A DNA stretch of 64,000 nt from Melioribacteraceae bacterium (GCA_030584085.1 CP129490.1:1273511-1337510), one strand, 5' to 3'; shown: positions 41,394 through 56,070, numbered from the stretch's first letter. Program-made: numbers and translations. Notes: generated by a model not told the origin, from the sequence alone.

Positions 41394-42368
41394 TTGCGAA
41401 ATAAAACTTACAACTTACTTGATTCAATTGGCAACACACCTCTAGTCAAACTAGATAATATTTCAAAAGAATTAAAAGCAAAAATTTGGGCAAAGTTAGA
41501 GTTTACAAATCCCGGTGGAAGCATAAAAGATCGTATTGCTTTATACATGATTGAAAAAGCCGAACGAGAAGGAAAGATAAAACCGGGTGATACTATTATT
41601 GAGAACTCATCAGGTAACACTGCTATGGGCTTAGCAATTGTTGCGAGACAAAAGGGCTATAAACTTAAAATCGTTATTCGCGATACTACGAGTAAAGAGA
41701 AAATTAAAATGCTTCAGGTACTCGGTGTTGATGTTCTTTTAGTCGATGCTAGTCTTCCTCATGAACATCCAAAATCATATAATAATTATGCAAAAAACTT
41801 AGCTGATGAACATCCCGATTATTATTACATTGATCAGCATAATAATTTAGATAACAACGAATCACACTATAAAACAACCGGACCCGAAATATGGGAACAG
41901 ATGAACGGAAAGATTGATTATGTTGTTGCTGGTGTGGGAACCGGGGGAACGTTGTGCGGAATGGGAAAATTTTTCAAGGAGAAAAATCCCAATATTAAAC
42001 TTATTGGAATTGATCCGATGGGTTCGATATTCTATAACTACTTTAAAGAAAAAAAACTCATTACACCGTACCGTTATAAAATTGAAGGGATTGGTGATGA
42101 GTTCTTAATCAAAACCGCACAACTTGAATTACTTGATGACATGTATCAAGTTGAAGATAAAACAGCTTTCCAATGGACCAAAAAATTGGCAAACGAAGAA
42201 GGGATTCTTTCCGGAGGTTCAAGCGGGGCAAATATTTGGGCATCTGTAAAACTCGCTAAAGAAATAGATAGAGAAGCTAATATTGTGACAATAATTTGCG
42301 ATTCGGGATATAAATATTTCAGCACAATTTACAATGACCAATGGTTGAAAGAAAATGAATTAATATAG
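41394..42368 (+). CDS. Cysteine synthase/cystathionine beta-synthase-like PLP enzyme without CBS domains
   Basis: A 324-residue fold-type II PLP enzyme. The PLP lysine is Lys45 in NPGGSIKDR. The substrate loop reads SSGNTAMG where most homologues have TSGNTG. The phosphate-binding glycine loop is GVGTGGTLCG and the PLP-ring serine is in GGSSGA. It could be an O-acetylserine sulfhydrylase, a cystathionine beta-synthase core or a related beta-replacement enzyme. The changed substrate loop means its specificity may differ from its neighbour. Start codon TTG at 41394 with a weak AGGA 8 bases away; the protein would otherwise lack its N-terminus. The downstream paralogue is about 100 bases away. 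Confidence 0.85.
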   Translation: MRNKTYNLLDSIGNTPLVKLDNISKELKAKIWAKLEFTNPGGSIKDRIALYMIEKAEREGKIKPGDTIIENSSGNTAMGLAIVARQKGYKLKIVIRDTTSKEKIKMLQVLGVDVLLVDASLPHEHPKSYNNYAKNLADEHPDYYYIDQHNNLDNNESHYKTTGPEIWEQMNGKIDYVVAGVGTGGTLCGMGKFFKEKNPNIKLIGIDPMGSIFYNYFKEKKLITPYRYKIEGIGDEFLIKTAQLELLDDMYQVEDKTAFQWTKKLANEEGILSGGSSGANIWASVKLAKEIDREANIVTIICDSGYKYFSTIYNDQWLKENELI

Positions 42369-42465
42369 ATGGTTAGTATTTTTTAAAACTATTCCCGAAA
42401 TTTTTATTTCCCCAACAATTCTTTATAAATTTGTACATCAAATCTCATTTTAGAGGGTAGTAGTT

Positions 42466-43827
42466 TTGGATTATAAGAATAATATAACCGAATTAATAGG
42501 AAACACGCCTTTAATTCAATTAAATAAACTTAACAATGGGTTAAAGCCAAAAATTTTTGCTAAACTCGAATCTAACAATCCCGGTGGAAGTGTAAAAGAT
42601 AGAATCGGTAGATCAATGATCGAAGATGCCGAACGATCGGGGAAACTTAAACCGGGTGGGACAATTGTAGAGGCAACCAGCGGTAATACGGGAATTGGAC
42701 TTGCTCTAACTGCAGCTGTAAAGGGGTATAAAGCTGTTTTTGTTGTGACAGATAAAGTAAGTGATGAAAAGATAAATTACCTTCGTGCACTTGGTTCGGA
42801 GGTAATCGTTGTTTCAAATGCAGTTGAACCGGATCATCCGGATTATTATGTAAACGTAGCAAAAAGAATTGCCGATGAAACACCGAATTCTATTTTTGCC
42901 TATCAGTATTCAAATCCCGCAAATCCCGAAGTACATTATCAAACGACCGGACCTGAGATTTGGAAACAGACCGATGGTAAGATTACTCATTTTATTGCAA
43001 GTATCGGAACCGGTGGAACAATAAGCGGAACGGGAAGATTTCTAAAAGAAAAAAATCCCAATATAAAAGTTATCGGAGCTGATCCGCTTGGCTCAATTTT
43101 CAAAACGTATAAGGAAACCGGCGAACTTATTAAAGGTACACCCTATCTAGTTGAAGGAATTGGACAAGACTGCCTACCGAAAAATGTTCACTTTCAATAC
43201 ATCGATCAGATAATAAATGTAAGTGATCGAGAATCATTTGCGATGGCTCGTCGTTTAACCAAAGAAGAGGGAATATTCTGTGGTGGCAGTACTGGAACAA
43301 TTGTTAAAGTAGCTTTGGATATTGCGAAAGATTTAACTGAAAATGATGTTGCCGTCTTCATCGTTTGTGATACCGGTGAACGTTATCTTTCCAAAGTGCA
43401 CAATGAAAGCTGGTTAAAAAATAATAGAATGCTCGAAGTAGAAATGAAAATTCTGCGTGATGTTTCTGACGAGAAGAAACGGAGAGGAATTGAAAATATC
43501 TGTTACGTTCATGATAGTGATTTAGTGAAAGATGCGGTCTCAATTTTTAATAAATATGGGTACACACAAATTCCCGTATTCGATGAACATCTAAAGCCGG
43601 TCGGATCCGTACGTGAAAATAAATTAATGGGAAAACTGGTGGAAGATTCAAAATTATTGAACGTAAAAGTATCGGAAGTTATGGAAGAATCATTCCCAAT
43701 AATTGATGCCAAAACAGAAATTGAAGAAGTGAAAAAAATGTTGAAAGATAGAAATGCAATTTTAGTTAGTGATTTTGGACGAATTACAGATATAATTACA
43801 AGATATGATTTAATTGATTTTAGTTAA
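42466..43827 (+). CDS. Cystathionine beta-synthase with C-terminal CBS-domain pair
   Basis: A 453-residue enzyme that should condense homocysteine with serine (or activated serine) to cystathionine. The catalytic core (1-~320) has PLP Lys44 (NPGGSVKDR), TSGNTGIG, SIGTGGTISG and GGSTGT. Two CBS motifs follow (~335-453: DLVKDAVSIFNKYGYTQIPVF and VSEVMEESFPIIDAKTE), which in the animal enzyme bind S-adenosylmethionine. The same architecture occurs in many Bacteroidota and actinobacterial genes. The start is TTG (42466), 8 bases after AGAGGG. The gamma-family gene 40 bases downstream supplies the next step of reverse transsulfuration. Confidence 0.9.
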   Translation: MDYKNNITELIGNTPLIQLNKLNNGLKPKIFAKLESNNPGGSVKDRIGRSMIEDAERSGKLKPGGTIVEATSGNTGIGLALTAAVKGYKAVFVVTDKVSDEKINYLRALGSEVIVVSNAVEPDHPDYYVNVAKRIADETPNSIFAYQYSNPANPEVHYQTTGPEIWKQTDGKITHFIASIGTGGTISGTGRFLKEKNPNIKVIGADPLGSIFKTYKETGELIKGTPYLVEGIGQDCLPKNVHFQYIDQIINVSDRESFAMARRLTKEEGIFCGGSTGTIVKVALDIAKDLTENDVAVFIVCDTGERYLSKVHNESWLKNNRMLEVEMKILRDVSDEKKRRGIENICYVHDSDLVKDAVSIFNKYGYTQIPVFDEHLKPVGSVRENKLMGKLVEDSKLLNVKVSEVMEESFPIIDAKTEIEEVKKMLKDRNAILVSDFGRITDIITRYDLIDFS

Positions 43828-43867
43828 TTGAAAATTGTCAATAGAAAATATTAAATAGGAAATTAAA

Positions 43868-45001
43868 ATGGGTTTTCAAACTGATGCTGTGCATGCCGGA
43901 CAAACACCTGAACCGCTAAGCGGTGCAATAACAATTCCGATATATCAAACTTCTACATATCATCAAGAAGAACTTGGTAAACACAAAGGATATGAATATG
44001 GCCGAACTCATAATCCGACTCGCGAGGCAATGGAAAAAAATATAGCAACTTTGGAAAAAGGGAAGTATGGTGTAGCTTACTCATCAGGACTCGCTTCTGT
44101 TCAGGCTTTGATGGGATTATCAAAACAAGGTGATCATGTAGTTATCTCAAACAATGTTTATGGTGGAACTTATCGTCAACTTGAATTGAACATGACAAAT
44201 TATGGTTTATCCTTTTCTTGGGTGGATACATCTGACTTAAAAAATATCGAGAATGCAATTAAGGACAACACAAAAATGGTTTACATCGAAACACCGACAA
44301 ACCCGATGTTAAACTTGACTGATATAAAAGGAACAACTGAAATTGCAAAGAAAAATAACTTAATCTCAGTTGTCGATAATACATTTATGAGTCCTTATTT
44401 TCAAAATCCTTTATTGTTGGGTGCCGATGTTGTCTTACACAGCACTACAAAATATCTTAATGGACACTGCGATGTTGTAGGCGGAATATTAATTACGAAT
44501 GACGAAAAAATTAATGAACGTTTAAGATATCTGCAAAATGCTATAGGTGCCGTGCCTTCTCCTTTTGATTGCTGGCTTACTCTGCGTTCGACTAAAACTC
44601 TTGCCTTAAGAATGAAACAACATAATGAAAATGCGATGAAAATTGCAGAGTATTTGGAAGGACAAAGTTATGCCGAAAAAGTTATTTATCCCGGTTTAAA
44701 ATCTCACTCTCAACACGATCTAGCAAAAAAACAAATGACTGGATTTGGCGGCATGATCTCGGTTGATTTTGGCACATTCGAAAAAGCCAAAAAAGTATTA
44801 AACGGAGTCAAGGTTTTTGCACTAGCTGAAAGTCTCGGTGGTGTTGAGAGTTTGGTCTGTCATCCCGCATCAATGACTCATGCTTCAGTTCCAAAAGAAG
44901 AACGTGATAAAATGGGATTGACAGATAGTCTTGTTCGTTTCTCTGTTGGAATCGAAGATGCAGAAGATTTAATTGCTGATATTGAACAGGCACTTAAATA
45001 A
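43868..45001 (+). CDS. Cystathionine gamma-synthase/gamma-lyase (Cys/Met PLP family)
   Basis: A 377-residue PLP enzyme of the Cys/Met metabolism family. The PLP lysine is Lys195 in HSTTKYLNGHCD. Other family motifs are YEYGRTHNPTR, YSSGLASVQA, VYGGTYRQ and the C-terminal SLGGVESLVCHPASMTH. Its place directly after a CBS-type beta-synthase favours cystathionine gamma-lyase, which splits cystathionine to cysteine, 2-oxobutyrate and ammonia. MetB-type gamma-synthase activity is the alternative and cannot be excluded. SD TAGGAAAT precedes the ATG. The 285 bases that follow hold no gene and no S-adenosylmethionine riboswitch that I can recognise. Confidence 0.9.
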   Translation: MGFQTDAVHAGQTPEPLSGAITIPIYQTSTYHQEELGKHKGYEYGRTHNPTREAMEKNIATLEKGKYGVAYSSGLASVQALMGLSKQGDHVVISNNVYGGTYRQLELNMTNYGLSFSWVDTSDLKNIENAIKDNTKMVYIETPTNPMLNLTDIKGTTEIAKKNNLISVVDNTFMSPYFQNPLLLGADVVLHSTTKYLNGHCDVVGGILITNDEKINERLRYLQNAIGAVPSPFDCWLTLRSTKTLALRMKQHNENAMKIAEYLEGQSYAEKVIYPGLKSHSQHDLAKKQMTGFGGMISVDFGTFEKAKKVLNGVKVFALAESLGGVESLVCHPASMTHASVPKEERDKMGLTDSLVRFSVGIEDAEDLIADIEQALK

Positions 45002-45286
45002 ATTTACGACTGTGAAAAGATTATAAGCTAATCTAACATCCACATAGCGCACAGATCGAGCAGAAAAAGCCGATAACCTATGATATTTCTTAGTAAACTG
45101 CTTTTTCAGCGGCAATTGTATTATGTAATATTTTCTTGATCGTATTCTCACAATTTCTCACAAATTTTAAAAAAATTTCCAAATAGAATTAACCCTAAAT
45201 AAAAATCAAAGGATATCCCTTTTTCTATTTTCTAAGGACATAGAAATCCTTAATTTTGTTTAAGAAAAATCAATAGGGAGGATAAA

Positions 45287-46606
45287 ATGACGGACACTAC
45301 GATCACAAAGAATAATAAGATAGAGGACTCCAAATATTCAATGGAGACACATGTTATTTATGGAAAAAATGTTTCGGATAAATGGGATTACTCACATCAT
45401 GTAACCGCGCCAATTTCTTCTTCAACTACATTTAGATTAGATTCAGTTGAGCGTGGAGCACAAGGATTTCAGCAATTTGCAAATACAGAGAACTTTGGAG
45501 ATGAAGCGCCGATTTTTATTTATGATCGTCTTGGAGAACCGAACAAAGATATGCTTGAAGAAAATCTCGCTTATGTCGAGAAAGGGGAGATGGCTGTAAC
45601 TTTTGCAAGCGGAATGGGAGCGATTTCTGCTGTTCTTGGGGTTTTGGTAAAAAGCGGTGATGAAATAATTACTCACTCAACTTTATATGGATGTACAATT
45701 TCACTTTTCAATAACTGGTATCCACGATACAATATTGGTGTAAAACCAATAAATTTAACTAATCTAAATAATTTTAGCAATACTGTAAATGAAAAAACAA
45801 AAGTAGTCTATTTAGAAACTCCAGCTAATCCAAATTTAGATATTATTGATCTCATAGAACTCAAGAAACTTGTGGATGAAGTTAATCAAACTCGTACGGA
45901 AAAAGATTACATAAAAATTGTGGTTGATAATACTTTTTCAACTCCATTCTGCCAACGACCTATCGAACTCGGGGCTGATTTTGTAGTTCACTCATTAACA
46001 AAAGGTATCGGTGGTTTTGGTACCGATATGGGTGGAGTAATTGTCGGACCGAAAAAATACCGCGATATGATTTTACTTTATCGGAAGGATTTTGGAGCAG
46101 TGCTGAATACTAAAAGTGCATGGGCAATTTTAACTTATGGATTACCGACATTACCGTTAAGACAAAAACAGCAAATTAAATCTGCAATGAGAATCGCAGA
46201 ATTTCTAGAAGCACATCCTAAAATATATTTTGTGAATTATCCAGGTTTACCAAGCTATAAATACCATGAACTAGCAAAACAACAAATGGTAGATTTCAAC
46301 GGAAACTTTGCCCCCGGTAGTATGATCTATTTTACATTAAAAGGTGATTCGGCTGAACAGCGAAAATTAATCGGCGCAAAGTTTATGGATTACGTAGCAG
46401 ATCATGCATACACTATGACACTTGCGGTTAGTCTGGGTCACACAAGAACCTTAATTGAACATCCAGCTTCAATGACACATTCGGTTGTTCCACCAGATCA
46501 ACTTGAAGCGAGAGGAATAGACGCCGGTGGTGTCAGATTAGCTATTGGTTTAGAAAATACAGAAGATATACTTTTGGATTTGGATGAAGCGTTAAAACAA
46601 TTGTAA
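45287..46606 (+). CDS. Methionine gamma-lyase-like enzyme (Cys/Met PLP family)
   Basis: A 439-residue PLP enzyme. Lys239 (HSLTKGIGGFG) is the Schiff-base lysine. The loop STLYGCTISLF has Cys136 at the position of the conserved active-site Cys of methionine gamma-lyases, which split methionine to methanethiol, 2-oxobutyrate and ammonia. Cystathionine enzymes usually have Gly or another residue there. The N-terminal ~40 residues are a longer extension than in the neighbour. O-acetylhomoserine sulfhydrylase is the alternative, but those usually lack this Cys. SD GGGAGGAT precedes the ATG. It has its own ~285-bp upstream region, so is probably separately controlled. Confidence 0.75.
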   Translation: MTDTTITKNNKIEDSKYSMETHVIYGKNVSDKWDYSHHVTAPISSSTTFRLDSVERGAQGFQQFANTENFGDEAPIFIYDRLGEPNKDMLEENLAYVEKGEMAVTFASGMGAISAVLGVLVKSGDEIITHSTLYGCTISLFNNWYPRYNIGVKPINLTNLNNFSNTVNEKTKVVYLETPANPNLDIIDLIELKKLVDEVNQTRTEKDYIKIVVDNTFSTPFCQRPIELGADFVVHSLTKGIGGFGTDMGGVIVGPKKYRDMILLYRKDFGAVLNTKSAWAILTYGLPTLPLRQKQQIKSAMRIAEFLEAHPKIYFVNYPGLPSYKYHELAKQQMVDFNGNFAPGSMIYFTLKGDSAEQRKLIGAKFMDYVADHAYTMTLAVSLGHTRTLIEHPASMTHSVVPPDQLEARGIDAGGVRLAIGLENTEDILLDLDEALKQL

Positions 46607-46741: not shown

Positions 46742-47401
46742 ATGAAATCAAGATTAACTTTAACAATTACCATTATCATTTTTCACCAGTTTTTACAAGC
46801 ACAAAATGATCCGACTAAACTTGTTGAAAAAATCACAGATAATACTTACCGAATTGATAATATTCTAATTAACACCACAACTAAAACACTTGAATTTCCG
46901 GCTTGGGTAAATATGACAGAAGGTCTTGTTGAGGTAATGGTGTGCGCACCGGGTGGAAAAGATCACGAATCTGTATTTATTGCTAATGTTGTTCCGTCCT
47001 ACCTGAATAGTGCTCTTTTATTATTAGGTTTGGAGACAGATAAAGATTTAAATTATGATCCACGAACACCAAATATTATTGGTCCCTCCTTGAATATTTT
47101 TGTGGAATGGGAAGTCGATGGAGACCTTTTTAGAATTCCTGCCGAAAATACTTTAATTAATATTACTGATTCTTCAACTGTTGATAATATTAATTGGGTT
47201 TACACAGGTTCTTTTTCAAAAAGCGGTCACTATGCGGCGGATAATGTTAAATCAATAATAACAACATATAATGATTTAACTACCATTATTGATAACGGTA
47301 GTAAAAGTGGAATTGATGATACTTTATTTGAAGCTAATCCAAAAGTTCTTCCACCAAAAAGAACTGATGTCAAAATTTTAATTCAGCTCAACAAGGAATA
47401 A
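46742..47401 (+). CDS. Secreted YdjY-like domain protein
   Basis: An exported protein of 219 residues. The signal peptide is followed by a segment typical of the YdjY domain: TLEFPAWVNMTEGLVEVMVC, then APGGKDHESVF, where the GGKxHES motif is the hallmark. The rest (FVEWEVDGDLFRIPAENTLI, WVYTGS) also agrees with that group. The function is unknown; members are usually secreted proteins of Bacteroidota, Planctomycetes and Verrucomicrobia. It lies 5 bases before a TonB-dependent receptor and is probably the first gene of the operon. SD AGAGGG precedes the ATG. Confidence 0.65.
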   Translation: MKSRLTLTITIIIFHQFLQAQNDPTKLVEKITDNTYRIDNILINTTTKTLEFPAWVNMTEGLVEVMVCAPGGKDHESVFIANVVPSYLNSALLLLGLETDKDLNYDPRTPNIIGPSLNIFVEWEVDGDLFRIPAENTLINITDSSTVDNINWVYTGSFSKSGHYAADNVKSIITTYNDLTTIIDNGSKSGIDDTLFEANPKVLPPKRTDVKILIQLNKE

Positions 47402-47406
47402 ACTAT

Positions 47407-49566
47407 ATGACTATAAAACCTCTTTTCGTTTTTTTGATTCTATTTAATATTCAGACATATTGTCAAGTTATTGATAAAGACACGGTTCATAATTACTCTT
47501 ATAATGAAATTGTTGTAACTGGAAATAGATATGAAACATTTTTGCTTCAGTCAACCTCATCAATCAATAAATTATCCGCTGTCCAATTAGCGAATTATCC
47601 TGTTCGCGACTTGGTTTCAACTTTACAATTTACACCCGGCTTTTTCTCGGTAAGTTTAGATGGGTTGGGTAAACATCCCGTAGTTACCACTAGAGGATTC
47701 TATGGTGGTGGGGAAGCCGAATATATCAATTTACTTGTGGATGGTATAGAAACTAATTATTCTCAAAGTGGCTTAGCTAATTGGCAAATTATCCCAACAG
47801 AAGTTCTGAATAATATAGAAATATTAAGAGGTGGTTCCTCTTCATTGTATGGAGATGCATCAATTGGAGGTGTAATTAACATTAACACTTTAGCAGGTTT
47901 GGAGAAAACTATTCTAAGTTTAAATGGCGGGGGATACGGTCAGTTCAACTCAAGTATTTATAGAAATTCTTCGTTTGGTGATCACCGATATTCGTTCTAT
48001 GGTGCATATGACGATGCAATTGGTTTCCGAGAACATAGTGATTGGATGCACGCATCATTCGGAGGTAATATTAGATTTAAATTAACCGATAATCTCAACT
48101 TATCTTTGGTAACACATAACCAAATTAACGATAGCGAACTTCCAGGACCAATTACTGAAACTGAATTGAACGAGAAAAGAAATCTTTCATCCGCCTACTA
48201 CAAGTATGATGAAAGAAAGGAAAATAGATTCATTTTTTCACCCAGTTTGGAATATAATATAAACGAATATTCTAGTTTGCGTTTGCAACTTGGTATCATG
48301 AACAGGACGGAAGACAAGACACAAACCTTTACTAATTTTGCCCCGATAATAAATCCACAAGATTTTTCAATAATTGGAGTTTATGATACTTCGCAATATG
48401 GAGATACCAAGCAGCGAGAATTACGTAGTAATGAAATATTCGGTGAGATATTATTCAATTCCAACTTTTCAAATTTCCCTGCGGAATTTGTGGCAGGCAC
48501 AAAAGTTAATTATTCTGATTACAGCAGTAGTTATTTTGATTACTATAAAGGATTCAAAGAGGATTATGAAAGTTCAAATGCTACAAGGGGAAATCAAGTC
48601 TTTGCTTCGGAAGGAACTAGAACTGAGCTATCAGCTTTTGTAAATTCCAGTATAGATATTTTGGAAGGACTTAGATTTAACTTAGGTGTTCGTTTCGATA
48701 ATATTTTTGATAAATATAATAGTTCACAACCAGATTCGATTATTTCTTCGGACAACAATGCGTTTAGTCCTAAAATTGGTCTGAATTATTTGTACTCCAA
48801 TAACTCTGATTATAAGGCGAGCTTGTATTTTAATTATAATAAATCATTTAAAGCTCCCACTATCGATCAGCTGACTGATTTAAAAAAATTGGACTTTATA
48901 ATTTTTATCCCCATCGGTCCGGATGCTTATACTACTTCACCTTACCAGGCAGATCCGTTCGCGAATTCAAATCTTAAACCACAGAAAAGTAATAATTATG
49001 AATTTGGCACATATCAAAGTATAAGTTTATCTAAAAGTTCGGCTCTGGAACTTCAATTATCATTTTATCAGATTGATATTGATGATGAAATTGATTTTGA
49101 TTTGAGCACATTCAAATATCAGAATATTGCAAAGACTAAACATCGCGGTATTGAATTTGGATCGAATATTGATTTTGGGAAGAACTTAACTGCCATGCTT
49201 AATTATACATACTCGGAAGTAACTTTTGAATCGGGTATCTATAATGGCAAGCAGTTAAAAGGAATTCCTAAACATGTCACTAATTTTGGATTTAATTATT
49301 CTTTTGATTTTGGTCTTTCGGCCGGAATAATTTTTAGTTCAGTAAATGATATTTATTTGGATGATAACAATACTGAAATGCTGGATAACTATTTGATTAC
49401 AAATGCAAAACTTGCCTATACATGGGAAAACATGATTTTTTCTTTAAGCATTTTTAATTTGTTGGATAAAGAATATAATAGCACAGGATATATCTCCGAC
49501 GGGACTAAATATTTATATCCGGCTGCAACAAGATACCTAATATTTGGTGTGAGTTATGAAATTTAA
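47407..49566 (+). CDS. TonB-dependent outer-membrane receptor
   Basis: A 719-residue ligand-gated outer-membrane transporter. After a signal peptide (ending QTYCQ), the plug domain (~30-160) starts EIVVTGNRYETFL and contains VVTTRGFYGGGEAEYINLLVDGIETN and ILRGGSSSLYGDASIGGVININT. A 22-strand-type barrel continues to the final YLIFGVSYEI. There is no N-terminal carboxypeptidase-regulatory domain, unlike SusC-type proteins, and no SusD partner. The ligand is unknown. It is followed by a second, different receptor gene that overlaps by 11 bases. Confidence 0.9.
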   Translation: MTIKPLFVFLILFNIQTYCQVIDKDTVHNYSYNEIVVTGNRYETFLLQSTSSINKLSAVQLANYPVRDLVSTLQFTPGFFSVSLDGLGKHPVVTTRGFYGGGEAEYINLLVDGIETNYSQSGLANWQIIPTEVLNNIEILRGGSSSLYGDASIGGVININTLAGLEKTILSLNGGGYGQFNSSIYRNSSFGDHRYSFYGAYDDAIGFREHSDWMHASFGGNIRFKLTDNLNLSLVTHNQINDSELPGPITETELNEKRNLSSAYYKYDERKENRFIFSPSLEYNINEYSSLRLQLGIMNRTEDKTQTFTNFAPIINPQDFSIIGVYDTSQYGDTKQRELRSNEIFGEILFNSNFSNFPAEFVAGTKVNYSDYSSSYFDYYKGFKEDYESSNATRGNQVFASEGTRTELSAFVNSSIDILEGLRFNLGVRFDNIFDKYNSSQPDSIISSDNNAFSPKIGLNYLYSNNSDYKASLYFNYNKSFKAPTIDQLTDLKKLDFIIFIPIGPDAYTTSPYQADPFANSNLKPQKSNNYEFGTYQSISLSKSSALELQLSFYQIDIDDEIDFDLSTFKYQNIAKTKHRGIEFGSNIDFGKNLTAMLNYTYSEVTFESGIYNGKQLKGIPKHVTNFGFNYSFDFGLSAGIIFSSVNDIYLDDNNTEMLDNYLITNAKLAYTWENMIFSLSIFNLLDKEYNSTGYISDGTKYLYPAATRYLIFGVSYEI

Positions 49567-51625
49567 AATCATTTCTTACCTTCTCTTTATTTATTCTTTC
49601 ACCTTTGTGTTTTTGCCTTTATCTGGGCAAGAAGTTAGTCCAAAAGATTCAACCATTCTCTCTTTTCAATTAGATCAGATTTCCGTGACGGCGTTAAGAG
49701 ATGAAATGGATACATTTAATACTCCTAATGAAGTAACAGTGATTCAGCAAAATGATTTTCTTGATCAAAATGTGAGGCTTCTGCCTGATGTATTTCAAAG
49801 ATATTCTTCTGTTTATATGCAGAAGACTAATTACGGCGGAGGTTCACCCATAATTAGGGGATTTATGGGGAACCAGGTGTTAATTTTAATTGACGGGATT
49901 AGATTAAATAACTCGACATATAGATACGGTCCAAATCAATATCTAAATACTATTGATCCTGGATTAATTAAATCGGTTGAAGTTATGCATGGTCCTGGAT
50001 CAGTACTTTACGGAAGTGATGCGCTTGGTGGCGTAATAAATATTATTACAAAGAAACCCGATAATTTTGTACATAATATAAATTCCTATACTAGGACAAG
50101 TACGGCTGATGAATCCATATATCAGAATCTTAATTACTCAAACCAATTTGGTGATATTAGTTTTTTAGTTGGCGGTACCTATAAGAAGTTTAATAATCTT
50201 AATGCCGGCGGTAAAGTTGAGGAACAAGAGTTTACAAATTTTGATGGAATCGACTTAAATGGCGCAATGAGTTATAACTTCAAAGATAACGGGAAGTTAA
50301 GTCTCAATTATAATTTTACCCGTCAGAATGAGGTACCAAGAACCGATAGATTAACTGCCGGAAATGATATTAAATATTTATTTAATCCTCAGGTTAGGCA
50401 ATTAGGTTACTTGAGCTACACCAACCAAAATATCTCATCATTAATCACTGATCTGAGTGCTAACTTATCGTATAATTATCAAAAAGAAAGTCGAGAAATT
50501 ATTTCAAGTAAAACTCCAAATTTAGAATCAAATGATAAAGATGAAGTAAATACAATAGGTGGTCAAATCACTCTCATATCAAAATATGACGAAAATATTT
50601 TTTCTTACGGAGTGGAGTTCTATAGAGATAAGATAAATAGTGAACGATTTATAATTGATGCAGACGCAAATACTAAAATCAAAGAACAACCAACATTTAC
50701 CGATAATTCATCATACCAAACCTTCGGTGCTTTTTTACAACATAGAATAAAGTTGGGCAGATTTGCCTTAACTTCCGGTGTTCGGTATTCTAAATTCCAA
50801 TTTGAAGGAAACATTGGTGATCCATTTGGCCTTGTATCCAGCGATAAAGGTGAATTTACATTTGCTGCCTCAGTAATGTATGCACTTATTACTAATAAAT
50901 TAAATTTGGTGCTGGCTTATTCGCAAGGATTCAGGGCGCCCAATGTCGATGACATCACATCATTCGGTAAATCAGGTTCCGGTGATGCTGCCAGGTACGA
51001 TACACCTAATCCAAATCTTGATCCTGAAAAAAGTCACAATATCGAAATAGGTGTTAAATTCAGAGAGTCTCAAATTGAAGCCGGCTTATCGATTTATTAT
51101 TCAAAAATAACTGATCTGCTAGAGCCTAGGCCAACTACTTTCAATGGAGCAGACTCTTTATTCGGGTTTCAAACTTATAGTAGGCAAAACGTTGGAGAAG
51201 CTGAGTTGAGCGGATTTGATTCATTTTTTCAGTGGTATTTTTCAAATCACCTGATCTTTACAGGGAATATAAGTTATACATATGGACAGAATCTTTCAGC
51301 AAATGAACCACTTTCGAGAGTTCCACCGTTAAATGGTTATTTTTCTGTAACTTGGAACTACGAGATTCTCTCAATTAAATATTATATGCTTTTTGCTTCA
51401 GCGCAGAAACGAATTAGTCAACGCGATATCAGAGACTATAGAATTGGTATTGACGGCACTTCCGGTTATATGACGCAAAACATATCGCTTATGGCTGATA
51501 TAAACGAGTACCTTGACTTATTCCTTAATTTTGAAAATGTTTTTGATGAACTATATAAAACTCACGGATCAGGTTTATACAGTCCCGGGAGGAGTCTTAC
51601 TTTAGGGCTAGCTTTACGATATTAA
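49556..51625 (+). CDS. TonB-dependent outer-membrane receptor (heme/siderophore-receptor-like plug)
   Basis: A 689-residue TonB-dependent receptor. The signal peptide ends PLSGQE. The plug includes IIRGFMGNQVLILIDGIRLN, then MHGPGSVLYGSDALGGVINIIT, of the style seen in heme and siderophore receptors; the ligand is not decided by this. The barrel contains FRAPNVDD and LDPEKSHNIEIGVKF, the usual receptor motifs, and ends LTLGLALRY. Its start overlaps the previous receptor by 11 bases, so both are made together. Two adjacent receptors without SusD suggest that one complex substrate, or two parts of it, are imported. Confidence 0.9.
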   Translation: MKFKIISYLLFIYSFTFVFLPLSGQEVSPKDSTILSFQLDQISVTALRDEMDTFNTPNEVTVIQQNDFLDQNVRLLPDVFQRYSSVYMQKTNYGGGSPIIRGFMGNQVLILIDGIRLNNSTYRYGPNQYLNTIDPGLIKSVEVMHGPGSVLYGSDALGGVINIITKKPDNFVHNINSYTRTSTADESIYQNLNYSNQFGDISFLVGGTYKKFNNLNAGGKVEEQEFTNFDGIDLNGAMSYNFKDNGKLSLNYNFTRQNEVPRTDRLTAGNDIKYLFNPQVRQLGYLSYTNQNISSLITDLSANLSYNYQKESREIISSKTPNLESNDKDEVNTIGGQITLISKYDENIFSYGVEFYRDKINSERFIIDADANTKIKEQPTFTDNSSYQTFGAFLQHRIKLGRFALTSGVRYSKFQFEGNIGDPFGLVSSDKGEFTFAASVMYALITNKLNLVLAYSQGFRAPNVDDITSFGKSGSGDAARYDTPNPNLDPEKSHNIEIGVKFRESQIEAGLSIYYSKITDLLEPRPTTFNGADSLFGFQTYSRQNVGEAELSGFDSFFQWYFSNHLIFTGNISYTYGQNLSANEPLSRVPPLNGYFSVTWNYEILSIKYYMLFASAQKRISQRDIRDYRIGIDGTSGYMTQNISLMADINEYLDLFLNFENVFDELYKTHGSGLYSPGRSLTLGLALRY

Positions 51626-51668
51626 AATAGTATATTTTTAATATTTACAAATTACTTTCTGAGGTCAT

Positions 51669-52799
51669 ATGAAAAAATGGGTAAATGTATTTGTTTTATT
51701 AACTTCATTTAGTATTGCGAATGCACAGGTTGATGTATCTCTTCAAAAAGAAATAGAACATTCGGTAATAAACGGACTCAAGTACTTAGCATCTGTGCAA
51801 GAAGATGACGGCTCATGGCAACATCATCCTGCTATCACGGGCTTAGTTTTGTCATCTTTTTTACGAGCCCACCCTTCAATTGGAATTAAAGACACTACAA
51901 TTAAAAAAGGTATAGATTTTCTGACCAAACTGGTACAAACAGATGGCGGGATTTATGCGGATGATATGAAAACTTATACTACCGCAATTTGTGTCATGAC
52001 TTTTGAAGATTTGGGAGTCGCAGAATATTCTGATATTATTTTGAATGGTAAGAAATTTTTAATGTCTATGCAGATGGATGAAGAACTAGGTTTAACGGTT
52101 GATAGTATTTATTATGGCGGTTTATCATATGGTAAAATGGATAAGGCTCCGGACCTTTCAAATTTGCAGTGGGCTTTGGAAGCAATTAGTTATGAGTCTC
52201 AAGATTTGGATAGAGCCGATGCTTTACAAACAAAAGTTGATCCAGAACAAAAGAAAATATTTTTTGATAAAGCAATTACTTTTTTAGAAAGAACACAAAA
52301 CTATAAAACAAATGACCAGGCATATGCATCGAACGATGGCGGTTTTATGTACAGACCTGGGGAAAGTAAGGCTGGAGAAACCATATCCTATGGTGGGATG
52401 ACTTATGCCGGACTTAAGAGTATGATTTTTGCAAAGGTATCAAAAGATGATGAAAGAGTTCAGGCTGCATTTAATTGGATAAAAAATAATTATTCTGTTG
52501 AAGAGAACCCCGGTATGGGTTTACAAGGTCTTTACTATTACTATCAAACAATGGCGAAAGCACTTTCAGTTATGGGTATCGAAGAGTTAAATACCCCCAA
52601 GGGTGAAGCTAATTGGAGAAGTGATTTAGCAGATCAATTGATAAAAATACAAAATTCTGATGGGTCTTGGGTAAACTCGAACGGACGGTGGTGGGAGAAC
52701 AATCCAGTATTGGTAACAGCATACTCACTCCTTGCTTTAGAAACAATAGCTGGGTTGCCTCATAATATAAGTACACAAAAAACATTGAGAATTGAGTAA
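51669..52799 (+). CDS. Secreted squalene-cyclase/prenyltransferase-repeat protein
   Basis: A 376-residue exported protein with a signal peptide (MKKWVNVFVLLTSFSIANAQ) and repeats of the alpha-alpha toroid found in terpene cyclases and prenyltransferases. Repeat-like units are YLASVQEDDGSWQHHPAITGLVLSSFL, QTDGGIYADDMKTYTTAICVM and IQNSDGSWVNSNGRWW...YSLLALE. No DxDD catalytic motif of squalene-hopene cyclases is present, and a secreted protein is an unlikely terpene cyclase. A binding or non-terpenoid role is inferred. It lies 43 bases after the second receptor and overlaps no gene; the next gene starts 22 bases after its stop. Confidence 0.75.
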   Translation: MKKWVNVFVLLTSFSIANAQVDVSLQKEIEHSVINGLKYLASVQEDDGSWQHHPAITGLVLSSFLRAHPSIGIKDTTIKKGIDFLTKLVQTDGGIYADDMKTYTTAICVMTFEDLGVAEYSDIILNGKKFLMSMQMDEELGLTVDSIYYGGLSYGKMDKAPDLSNLQWALEAISYESQDLDRADALQTKVDPEQKKIFFDKAITFLERTQNYKTNDQAYASNDGGFMYRPGESKAGETISYGGMTYAGLKSMIFAKVSKDDERVQAAFNWIKNNYSVEENPGMGLQGLYYYYQTMAKALSVMGIEELNTPKGEANWRSDLADQLIKIQNSDGSWVNSNGRWWENNPVLVTAYSLLALETIAGLPHNISTQKTLRIE

Positions 52800-52821
52800 G
52801 TCTAACATAAAAGGAGATAAT

Positions 52822-55800
52822 ATGAAGCACACGTTTCATTTATTAACAATTTCCTTTCTTCTAGTTTTTAATTTATCATTTGCCCAATACACATCAGATG
52901 AAATGATTGAACGTGGATTGGAGTACTTGGCTAATTCGCAAACGGTGCTTAAATCACCCGGAATAGCATCGTTTAGCGAAATGGGAAGCCAGCTTAAAAG
53001 TGGACCTAAATCCAATTCGATAATGCTTGCTGGTGGGGGTTACTGGACAAACACTGGCATTACGGGTTTGGCATTGCAAGCTTTTTTAGCCCATGGTCAT
53101 GGTCTTGATGACCCTACTTATGGAACAGTCGTTAGGAATGCAGTTGATTACATTCTTTCTGCACAGAATAGAACTGTAGGTAACTATGAGATGGGAGCCA
53201 TCGGGCATGGTTTTGAAGTAGGTTATGAAACAGCAATTTGCATGGGTGCTCTTTCTTCAGTTCTCAAATTGGGTGTAACTAACGACTCGCTGAGAACAGA
53301 AATCTTAAATGCGCTGGATTTAGCACTGATCTATTACACACAAGATATTGATAGTTCCGGCTGGGACTATGTCAGTTGGCGTTATAACAGGTCCTATTTT
53401 GGACAAACTTCAGGAGATATGTCTGCGAATCAATGGGTATATCTTGCATTGTTTGATACCGATTACGAAGGTAAAGATATTTGGCAGAAAATTTATAATT
53501 ATATAAATGATTTCTCTGTTCAAACAGAAACTACTGCTTATTTAGGTTATACACCTTACTCTCCTGGTACATGGAGTCGAGGTAATTCAATGGCTGCGAT
53601 CTGGGGGTTAATTCTTGCAGATGGATTCGGAATAACAGACGCAGGAGTTTTAGTTAATAAATTTTATAACTGGCTGGAATTGAATTCTCTTTCAGAAATT
53701 ATCGATCCTGCTTCTATTGGAAATCATGTTTATTCTGGTGGTGGTTATCATTATTATTTATACGAATTTGCTAAGGCTATGGCTCTAGGCGGAAGAATTC
53801 AGTTTCTTGGTTCGGATTGGTATACCGAACTTGAAACAGAACTTTCTTCAAGAGCAATTGAACCTACACCCGGCCAGCTTTATTGGGATGGTTCAGGTGG
53901 GCAAGGTCGGCCAATGGAGACAGCTTTAGCTGTTCTGTCTCTTCAATCAGGTACAGTTCCGCCTGGGACTAAATTTACTGTAGGAGCATTTATTAGACCA
54001 ACTGATGCTGATACGTCAGGAGTAAAACAGTATAACAGTGTTACAGCAGATTTCGAATACCAAATTTCAATTTATGATGCTCTTGGAAATTTTGCCGGTC
54101 AAGATGAAAACGGTGATTGGATTACTACTATACCAAATTCAAGTTGGACAAGTACAACAAGTCCGATTGAATTTGAAGTCAATCTCACTTCTGCTGCCAC
54201 ATTTAATATAGAAGTTGCAAATACCGGTGATGAGTCTATTGATTTTGATCTGCATTATGCCGCTTATCAGGGTGGGAGTACAACTCCTTCTAGTGAAAAA
54301 GATTATGCCGGATCGATTGCTCCTAACGAAAGTGTTGGCTCAACGGCTAATATAAATGCAATTGGTGGATTGAGTATTTTTTCTACAACTCCGACTGCGT
54401 TACCAGTTATGCAGTTATCACAAACACTCTGGTATGTGGATCCAGCTGAAAATGATTCAACGTATACGCTTGATTTGGGAATTGCTGAAGTCGGGGATTC
54501 TGCTGCACTAAATAGTATCACGGTGTTTGCGTCTGATCTTGTTGATGAATACGGAAATATTATCCCTAAAGCTAATTACAGCATTACACCGACATCAATA
54601 GCAAAAATTGACCAAGGAACATCCGATACTGTTTCAGTAAGTCTTACGATTCCCGATTCTACAAGCTTAGATCTTTCTTCTGTAGGATTGTTAAAAGGGA
54701 CTGTAACTATTCAATCTAGTAAATCCACAAAGGCAATTCAGGTTCGAGTTGGAAGAGTATTCCCATCGGTCGCACTTATCTCTCCTCCAAACAATGCTTC
54801 TAACGTTTCAACGGATATAGATTTTACTTGGAGTGGGGATGAAGTATTATTGGCAACCGATCCGGGTGGAAAAGGGCAGAATAGAGTTCAGGCTGTTAGT
54901 AAATATTGGTTTCAATTAGTAACTGATACTGGTACTATGGATGGTTTGGTTCAAGATTCTACACTTGTTGACAGTTCTTATTCCGTAAATGGTCTTACAT
55001 CTCAACAAACTTATTTTTGGAGAGTTGCTGGTAAAAATCATTTTGGTTGGGGAGCATTTTCATCTTGGTTTTCATTCACAACCGTTCAGTCCGGAGCTCT
55101 GGCAGCACCACTATTAATAAGTCCTGAGAATAATTCTGTTGATATCATATTGCCGCATCCTTTACAATGGAGTACTATAAATAATTCCGATCTGTACCAG
55201 TTGATTATTGCAGATGATGCTAACTTTAATACTGTTTTATATAATAATCTGAATATTAGGGAAGGTAGCTATTTGATTCTTAAAACAAACACGCCTGATG
55301 GGAAAAAAATGTATTGGAAAGTAAGAGCTGGTACCGATGCTGGTGCAACCGGTCCTTATAGTTTAACTTGGAACTTTACAACATATCTCCCATTCCCTTC
55401 TGATCTTGTGGCCTCCTCATCACAAAGTGATGTGGCAGTCGATTTAAGTTGGGTTGATAACTCGAATGGAGAAAATGGATTTATAATTTATAGAGCAGTT
55501 GGATTTGATGTAAGCAATGATCAGCTATTCTCTGCCATTGATACAGTTGGGGCAAATCAGACAATTTATACAGATTCAGAAGTAATGGAAAATACTCCCT
55601 ATACATACAAAATTACAGCACTGACTGATGATGTTGAATCCGATGAAAGCAACATATCCTCAGCTTCTACAATAACAGGGCTAAAGGAAGAAGGCTTACC
55701 AACAGAATATACACTTTATCAAAATTATCCAAATCCATTTAATCCGTCTACAACTATCAGATTTGCTTTACCATTTGCTAGTTCTGTACGTCTTGAAGTT

Positions 55801-55983
55801 TATAATTTATTAGGACAGAAAGTCGCAACATTACTGGATGGTAATGAGAATGCGGGTTACCATAAATTAGAATTTAATGCTAAAAATCTTGCTTCCGGTA
55901 TTTATTTTTACACAATAAAAGCAAATTCTATTGAAGGTGATAATGAATTTAGAGATGTTAAGAAGTTTATGTTAATGAAATAA
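52822..55983 (+). CDS. Large T9SS-exported protein: helical toroid, Fn3-like domains and type A sorting domain
   Basis: A 1053-residue surface or secreted protein. The start at ATG 52822 is set by SD AAGGAG and a signal peptide (ending NLSFAQ); the frame is open upstream to a TTG inside the previous gene. Residues ~20-380 look like an alpha-alpha toroid related to the previous gene product (ITGLALQAFLAHG, WRYNRSYFGQTSGDMSANQWV, GRPMETALAVLSLQ). A beta domain follows (~385-640), then Ig/Fn3-like domains (~645-950; FTWSGDE, HPLQWSTI, DLSWVDNSNGENGFIIYR). The final ~90 residues form a T9SS type A sorting domain (NYPNPFNPSTTIRFALP, LASGIYFYTIKA). The SprA translocon in this window would export it. 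Confidence 0.85.
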   Translation: MKHTFHLLTISFLLVFNLSFAQYTSDEMIERGLEYLANSQTVLKSPGIASFSEMGSQLKSGPKSNSIMLAGGGYWTNTGITGLALQAFLAHGHGLDDPTYGTVVRNAVDYILSAQNRTVGNYEMGAIGHGFEVGYETAICMGALSSVLKLGVTNDSLRTEILNALDLALIYYTQDIDSSGWDYVSWRYNRSYFGQTSGDMSANQWVYLALFDTDYEGKDIWQKIYNYINDFSVQTETTAYLGYTPYSPGTWSRGNSMAAIWGLILADGFGITDAGVLVNKFYNWLELNSLSEIIDPASIGNHVYSGGGYHYYLYEFAKAMALGGRIQFLGSDWYTELETELSSRAIEPTPGQLYWDGSGGQGRPMETALAVLSLQSGTVPPGTKFTVGAFIRPTDADTSGVKQYNSVTADFEYQISIYDALGNFAGQDENGDWITTIPNSSWTSTTSPIEFEVNLTSAATFNIEVANTGDESIDFDLHYAAYQGGSTTPSSEKDYAGSIAPNESVGSTANINAIGGLSIFSTTPTALPVMQLSQTLWYVDPAENDSTYTLDLGIAEVGDSAALNSITVFASDLVDEYGNIIPKANYSITPTSIAKIDQGTSDTVSVSLTIPDSTSLDLSSVGLLKGTVTIQSSKSTKAIQVRVGRVFPSVALISPPNNASNVSTDIDFTWSGDEVLLATDPGGKGQNRVQAVSKYWFQLVTDTGTMDGLVQDSTLVDSSYSVNGLTSQQTYFWRVAGKNHFGWGAFSSWFSFTTVQSGALAAPLLISPENNSVDIILPHPLQWSTINNSDLYQLIIADDANFNTVLYNNLNIREGSYLILKTNTPDGKKMYWKVRAGTDAGATGPYSLTWNFTTYLPFPSDLVASSSQSDVAVDLSWVDNSNGENGFIIYRAVGFDVSNDQLFSAIDTVGANQTIYTDSEVMENTPYTYKITALTDDVESDESNISSASTITGLKEEGLPTEYTLYQNYPNPFNPSTTIRFALPFASSVRLEVYNLLGQKVATLLDGNENAGYHKLEFNAKNLASGIYFYTIKANSIEGDNEFRDVKKFMLMK

Positions 55984-56014
55984 AAAAATGCCCATCTGTA
56001 AATGGGCATTTTTT
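55983..56014 (+). terminator. Rho-independent terminator after the T9SS cargo gene
   Basis: A 13-bp stem (AAAAAATGCCCAT with ATGGGCATTTTTT) and a 6-base loop at the stop codon of the + strand gene. The A- and T-rich flanks make it able to work in both directions. Confidence 0.88.
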
Positions 56015-56029
56015 AAATAATTATTATTA

Positions 56030-56070
56030 TACCCGACTGGCAAATTTTCAGTCGGGTATTTTTATTTTTT
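56030..56070. terminator. Second hairpin terminator between convergent genes
   Basis: TACCCGACTG (56030-56039) pairs with CAGTCGGGTA (56049-56058), followed by TTTTTATTTTTT on the + strand. It lies just beyond the htpG stop, so it may also end htpG transcription, although the minus-strand U-tract is weaker. Confidence 0.75.

Follow-up and report, generated by a model that had tools for sequence, protein, structure and literature searches.

Related uptake systems

TonB-dependent receptors are usually interpreted from SusCD, siderophore, heme or vitamin B12 precedents. In the SusCD and RagAB 'pedal-bin' systems, a TonB receptor is encoded together with a surface capture protein. RagAB has been implicated in the uptake of protein fragments in a proteolytic species that bears a type IX secretion system (T9SS) (PMC11817032). 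Cobalamin uptake in Bacteroides follows a similar arrangement, with the TonB receptor BtuB associated with a dedicated surface binder, BtuG (PMC10404256). The PQQ signature of the receptor PqqU, also known as YncD, consists of Tyr99, Arg304 and Arg365 (PMC12124388).

The locus described here lies within the window, a stretch of 64,000 nucleotides from a Melioribacteraceae bacterium (GCA_030584085.1, CP129490.1:1273511-1337510). Five consecutive genes encode a YdjY-domain protein, two TonB-dependent receptors (TBDR1 and TBDR2) and two alpha/alpha-toroid proteins (TorA and TorB). The co-encoded receptors and candidate surface binder are reminiscent of SusCD/RagAB. However, the SusD-type TPR lipoprotein is absent, the role of binder would fall to an alpha/alpha toroid displayed through the T9SS, and there is a second toroid which, together with YdjY, is predicted to be periplasmic. 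The likeness to BtuB-BtuG is likewise limited to the combination of receptor and surface binder, as the binder has a different fold and there is neither a BtuB-level match nor a cobalamin riboswitch. The set recurs as a unit in several bacterial phyla and is therefore probably a genuine, uncharacterised machine to capture or process something extracellular.

Organization of the gene cluster

All five genes are on the + strand. The first encodes the YdjY-domain protein (46742-47401; 219 aa) and is followed by TBDR1 (47407-49566), TBDR2 (49556-51625), TorA (51669-52799; 376 aa) and TorB (52822-55983; 1053 aa counted from the ATG at 52822). The short or negative gaps listed in the first-pass annotation were confirmed as 5 bp, -11 bp, 43 bp and 22 bp (the last to the TorB ATG), the negative value being an 11-bp overlap of the TBDR1 and TBDR2 reading frames. 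Shine-Dalgarno-like sequences precede several of the genes, and no strong intergenic terminator was found between them (46742-55983). A Rho-independent terminator-like hairpin, a 12-pair stem followed by a T run, closes the set at 56029-56059 (+) and is convergent with htpG. The spacing, the ribosome-binding-like sequences and this terminator fit with a single operon, and the five genes are probably transcribed as one. No cis-regulatory RNA was detected in the window; the sub-threshold Rfam matches at 55977-56070 are terminator hairpins.

The domain content proposed earlier was also upheld by Pfam and NCBIfam, namely a YdjY protein, two receptors with plug (PF07715) and TonB barrel (PF00593), a toroid protein without a DxDD motif, and a protein with toroid, Ig/Fn3 and T9SS domains. 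The same holds for the absence of SusD and CarboxypepD among the matches of the five window proteins.

The cluster is preceded by a block of cysteine/methionine genes (41394-46606), comprising two cysteine synthase-like and two trans-sulfuration enzymes. A cysteine synthase is also found downstream of TorA in L099 (2034-2954), a recurrence in 2 of 30 loci that is possibly due to chance. Two other readings of the cluster were dropped: a defence system, as PADLOC returned no match, and spread by mobile elements or plasmids, as there was no plasmid match and the viral contigs held no relative.

Conservation across genomes

A contig scan with TorA recovered 25 loci from KSB1, Bacteroidales, other Bacteroidota, Cloacimonadota, GN15 and unassigned bacteria. 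Further genomes were added from relatives in the same family and class (G297 and G251) and from the phylum of the GN15 locus. The 30 YdjY-TorA loci compared belong to Bacteroidota, Ignavibacteria, KSB1, Cloacimonadota, a GN15/Zixibacteria-like group and others, at least five phylum-level groups in all. In a six-frame profile scan, 29 of the 30 have YdjY immediately before TorA and in the same orientation; in the exception, L097, a YdjY fragment adjoins TorA and the intact YdjY is about 7 kb off. TorB or a homologous toroid-T9SS protein is close by in nearly all of these loci. The five-gene order is therefore not confined to this genome, being identical in G297 of the same family, and the module extends to other Ignavibacteria, Bacteroidota and further phyla. 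It is nevertheless rare. Orthologues of TorA were found in 2 of 296 genomes sampled from the organism's own phylum, with marginal matches in two more; for TorB, unambiguous orthologues came from 2 of 395. Similar TorA sequences are presumably also present in Planctomycetes.

All-against-all clustering of neighbouring genes across eight lineages limited meaningful recurrence to YdjY, the toroids, the TonB receptors and a PorV-family gene, the last in two lineages. With membership kept across phyla and only these genes recurring, the view of the cluster as a conserved functional module holds. YdjY, TorA and TorB are its core, as Cloacimonadota and KSB1 do without the receptors.

Some neighbours are of separate interest. 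Beside the module in receptor-less KSB1 and Cloacimonadota, the PorV-family genes lie at L029:8065-9276, L031:8066-9262 and L041:14357-15313. In two Cloacimonadota loci (L041:10458-11462 and L039:9398-10405), a gene scoring above the TIGR02486 cut-off (reductive dehalogenase family) lies between TorA and the TorB-like gene; it has no obvious export signal. Divergent YdjY-domain proteins of other Bacteroidota (L061, L062, L063 and L064) stand alone, without toroid or receptor neighbours.

YdjY and the toroid proteins

The YdjY-domain protein scores 124.9 bits against NF040466 (cut-off 50), contains a Sec signal and is predicted to be periplasmic. Its AlphaFold (AF2) model is confident (pLDDT 90.4). 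There was no convincing sequence match in the PDB and no Foldseek match at E<=0.001. YdjY of E. coli belongs to the same domain family, although its operon, ydjXYZ-ynjABCD, contains neither toroid nor receptor. This operon is activated by FNR (PMC3688515), which fits anaerobic use and is silent on the chemistry. Nothing in the open-access literature was found to tie YdjY or squalene-cyclase repeats to TonB or the T9SS.

TorA matches PF13243, the squalene-hopene-cyclase repeat region, above its cut-off (33.1 bits), and its AF2 model (pLDDT 86) adopts the terpene-cyclase toroid fold. Foldseek matches of the model include type II terpene cyclases, AprG, MmpH (a mannose-polysaccharide hydrolase) and complement thioester domains, with E 4.8e-07 to 8PAK and a TM of about 0.55 to known toroids. 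The overall fold is thus common to TorA, single-domain type II terpene cyclases (MstE and the SHC-like 8PAK), AprG, MmpH and the thioester domain (TED). TorA differs from these in its export and in having YdjY and a T9SS toroid protein as partners, and from the cyclases in the absence of DxDD, which TorB also lacks. As the fold serves cyclases, an aldolase (AprG), glycosidases and thioester domains alike, it leaves the chemistry unfixed. The threshold for the alpha-2-macroglobulin thioester domain was missed (19.7 bits versus 22), the only Cys being C108 in 'ICVM'. About 70 columns are invariant among 26 TorA orthologues, and most of these hold polar or aromatic residues.

By hhalign, the toroids of TorA and TorB are homologues (probability 99.4%, E 5e-22); both are also matched by the PKD-type T9SS proteins found instead of TorB in other lineages. 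The toroid of TorB is accordingly predicted by profile homology to share the fold family of TorA, for which the model and Foldseek provide the structural evidence; the earlier claim of two toroids of one fold family stands on these terms. TorB also exceeds the cut-offs of the T9SS type A sorting domain (Por_Secre_tail PF18962/TIGR04183; TIGR04183 41.5 versus 23), with fn3 at its cut-off. SprA is encoded in 15 of 16 module genomes, including this one (SprA_N in G000). The sorting domain and the presence of SprA point to TorB as a predicted cell-surface cargo of the T9SS. TorA has a Sec-type signal, no sorting domain and no lipobox (0 of 21 orthologues), and is for these reasons probably periplasmic. 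The word 'secreted' used earlier for TorA thus most likely denotes the periplasm, and a signal for surface export is found on TorB alone. Other exported toroid-like proteins with a C-terminal TorA motif (L065:5280-6602 and L066:5625-6986) form a separate family; in L066 the following gene resembles a VWA-domain protein.

The TonB-dependent receptors

The nearest solved relative of TBDR1 is PqqU (profile 211 bits, over the full length) and that of TBDR2 is the heme receptor PhuR (229 bits). In 11 loci of Ignavibacteria, Bacteroidota and the GN15/Zixibacteria-like group, YdjY-TorA has members of both subfamilies as neighbours; the receptor genes vary in order and may be on the same strand, divergent or flanking. 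They are present in both main clades of the TorA tree, with five label changes. The link therefore survives rearrangement. TBDR2 of three Bacteroidota loci carries a CarboxypepD domain, unlike the window receptors.

Receptor profiles were built from cluster members, leaving out the TBDR1s of G341, G467 and G472 and the TBDR2s of G472 and G314. In genome-wide searches the scores were bimodal and set true members clearly apart from other receptors: TBDR1 orthologues scored at least 567 bits versus 142 for the next match, and TBDR2 orthologues at least 638 versus 219. Neither receptor was found anywhere in the tested Cloacimonadota and KSB1 genomes which keep YdjY-TorA-TorB. TBDR2 is present without TBDR1 in G251, and TBDR1 without TBDR2 in G506. 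In G314, of the same family as the window, a TBDR2 orthologue (L027:4768-6579) is located on a 9-kb contig on which no other module gene was seen. Two off-module TBDR1 orthologues (L117:10085-12175 and L118:8889-10991) adjoin a set of heavy-metal RND efflux genes that includes a CusB-like adaptor, as well as a two-component system. That of L118 is also downstream of a CfbA/CbiX-like chelatase domain protein with a signal-like N-terminus.

Toroid-peptidase fusions

In L038 and L042 the TorB-type toroid is joined to an astacin, and in L026 to a C13/legumain-like peptidase. The latter was recognized by similarity to L089, in which Peptidase_C13 (Pfam) is attached to a more distantly related toroid. 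The N-terminal part of the TorB-type protein of L097 contains a HEFGH motif, a metallopeptidase-like feature at the level of the motif only. TorA-type toroids are joined to a subtilase (S8) in L074:486-3488 (-) and to a papain-family (C1) peptidase in L101:3-2906 (-); both contigs are short, look foreign to their bins and are possibly archaeal contaminants. No peptidase is attached to the TorB of the window, and secreted peptidases can carry accessory domains of a generic kind. Even so, the repeated pairing of toroids with unrelated secreted peptidases suggests that the toroid handles polypeptides, and that the substrates may be proteins or peptides rather than terpenoids or cobalamin.

Proposed function

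The favoured reading, to which a probability of roughly 40% is assigned, is a TonB-coupled module for capture and uptake, in which two paralogous toroid proteins flank the outer membrane, one on either side. TorB would leave the cell through the type IX system and remain on its surface, its toroid perhaps holding a large, probably polypeptide-derived ligand there. In other lineages, TorB could double as a peptidase releasing the ligand. TBDR1 and TBDR2, where present, would import the released piece or cofactor with TonB energy, and on the periplasmic side TorA with its constant partner YdjY would take over the ligand, bind it or modify it. The model draws on the observed gene order and its conservation, the domain content, the toroid homology, the export signals and the peptidase fusions. 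From these we infer the periplasmic place of TorA and YdjY, ligand binding by the toroids, a proteinaceous ligand and the direction of transfer. Counting against it are the receptor-less core genomes of Cloacimonadota and KSB1, the incomplete sets of G251, G506 and G314, the peptidase-less TorB of the window, and the foreign-looking contigs of the subtilase and papain fusions. The first-pass annotation suggested that both toroids may bind a ligand outside the cell for the receptors; this agrees with the surface signal of TorB, but not with a probably periplasmic TorA or with a core that persists without receptors.

The main rival to the capture-and-uptake model is that YdjY and TorA are periplasmic maturation factors, an enzyme/chaperone pair readying TorB for type IX export or anchoring, with the receptors as dispensable clients or as genes acquired later. 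Such a role would explain why the invariant set is YdjY-TorA-TorB with the receptors not included; the deeply conserved polar and aromatic residues of TorA resemble an active site, and the PorV-family genes adjoining the module in KSB1 and Cloacimonadota are relatives of the T9SS shuttle. It is nonetheless considered rather unlikely. TorB-like proteins range from 882 to 2579 aa in PKD, peptidase or Ig contexts, a breadth of variation not seen in TorA, the receptors recur in both main TorA clades, and TorA-type toroids fused to peptidases do without a separate TorB. The remaining explanations are less likely than maturation. The adjacency of several envelope genes without joint function, as a result of chance co-inheritance, would be in keeping with the gain and loss of receptors (the five label changes on the TorA tree). 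It is a decidedly slim prospect given that only module genes recur among neighbours in eight lineages, that membership is steady while order and orientation shift, and that intact YdjY and TorA are almost never apart.

Scavenging of a small redox cofactor or tetrapyrrole (heme, PQQ-like or corrinoid), with the toroids as carriers as in transcobalamin, is improbable. It is suggested by the kinship of the receptors to PqqU and PhuR, by the chelatase domain protein upstream of the G341 TBDR1 orthologue, and by the reductive-dehalogenase-family gene between TorA and the TorB-like gene in Cloacimonadota. However, every NCBIfam cut-off was missed by a wide margin, including the BtuB equivalog (599.7, versus 108.7 for TBDR1 and 117.4 for TBDR2) and the heme/hemoglobin receptors of TIGR01785 (256.8 versus 316.85); the PqqU cut-off was not reached either. 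Within the PQQ signature, TBDR1 keeps the plug Tyr99 equivalent (12 of 12) but the Arg304 and Arg365 columns are unconserved, the loop alignment being approximate. TBDR2 has no His in the FRAP-NPNL loop, none conserved in the plug, and a single conserved His near the C-terminus. Heme and PQQ were rejected on these signature residues. Cobalamin riboswitch control is typical of BtuB receptors in Bacteroidota; no such riboswitch was found in or near the window or in 16 related loci scanned, and cobalamin was rejected on this and the lack of a BtuB-level match. A secreted terpenoid cyclase or hopanoid-type enzyme, which would make the cluster part of lipid metabolism, would account for the PF13243 match and for the best Foldseek matches of TorA, single-domain squalene-hopene-type and type II cyclases. 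This is highly improbable, as DxDD is absent, subfamily cut-offs were missed by far (TIGR01787 31.9 versus 322.7), TorA is exported rather than cytoplasmic, and AprG and glycosidases use the same fold. The idea of a hydrophobic or cobalamin-like ligand, raised at the outset, thus found no support in riboswitch, receptor or motif, nor in the invariant residues of TorA, most of which are polar or aromatic.

Significance

A more specific form of the capture-and-uptake model may be offered tentatively, and is itself doubtful. The module could represent a kind of TonB-coupled uptake not described before, present in several phyla that are mostly uncultured. A toroid displayed through the T9SS, in many cases with a peptidase, would trap and trim proteins or peptides, and a homologous periplasmic toroid together with YdjY would receive the product. 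If true, it would add a binder architecture that is absent from the SusCD, siderophore, heme and B12 systems. It would also account for exported 'squalene cyclase' annotations in several phyla. The YdjY family, including that of E. coli, is without an assigned function or solved fold and would gain a constant partner to test. The pairing of YdjY with TorA is by itself a direct and cheap experimental hypothesis.
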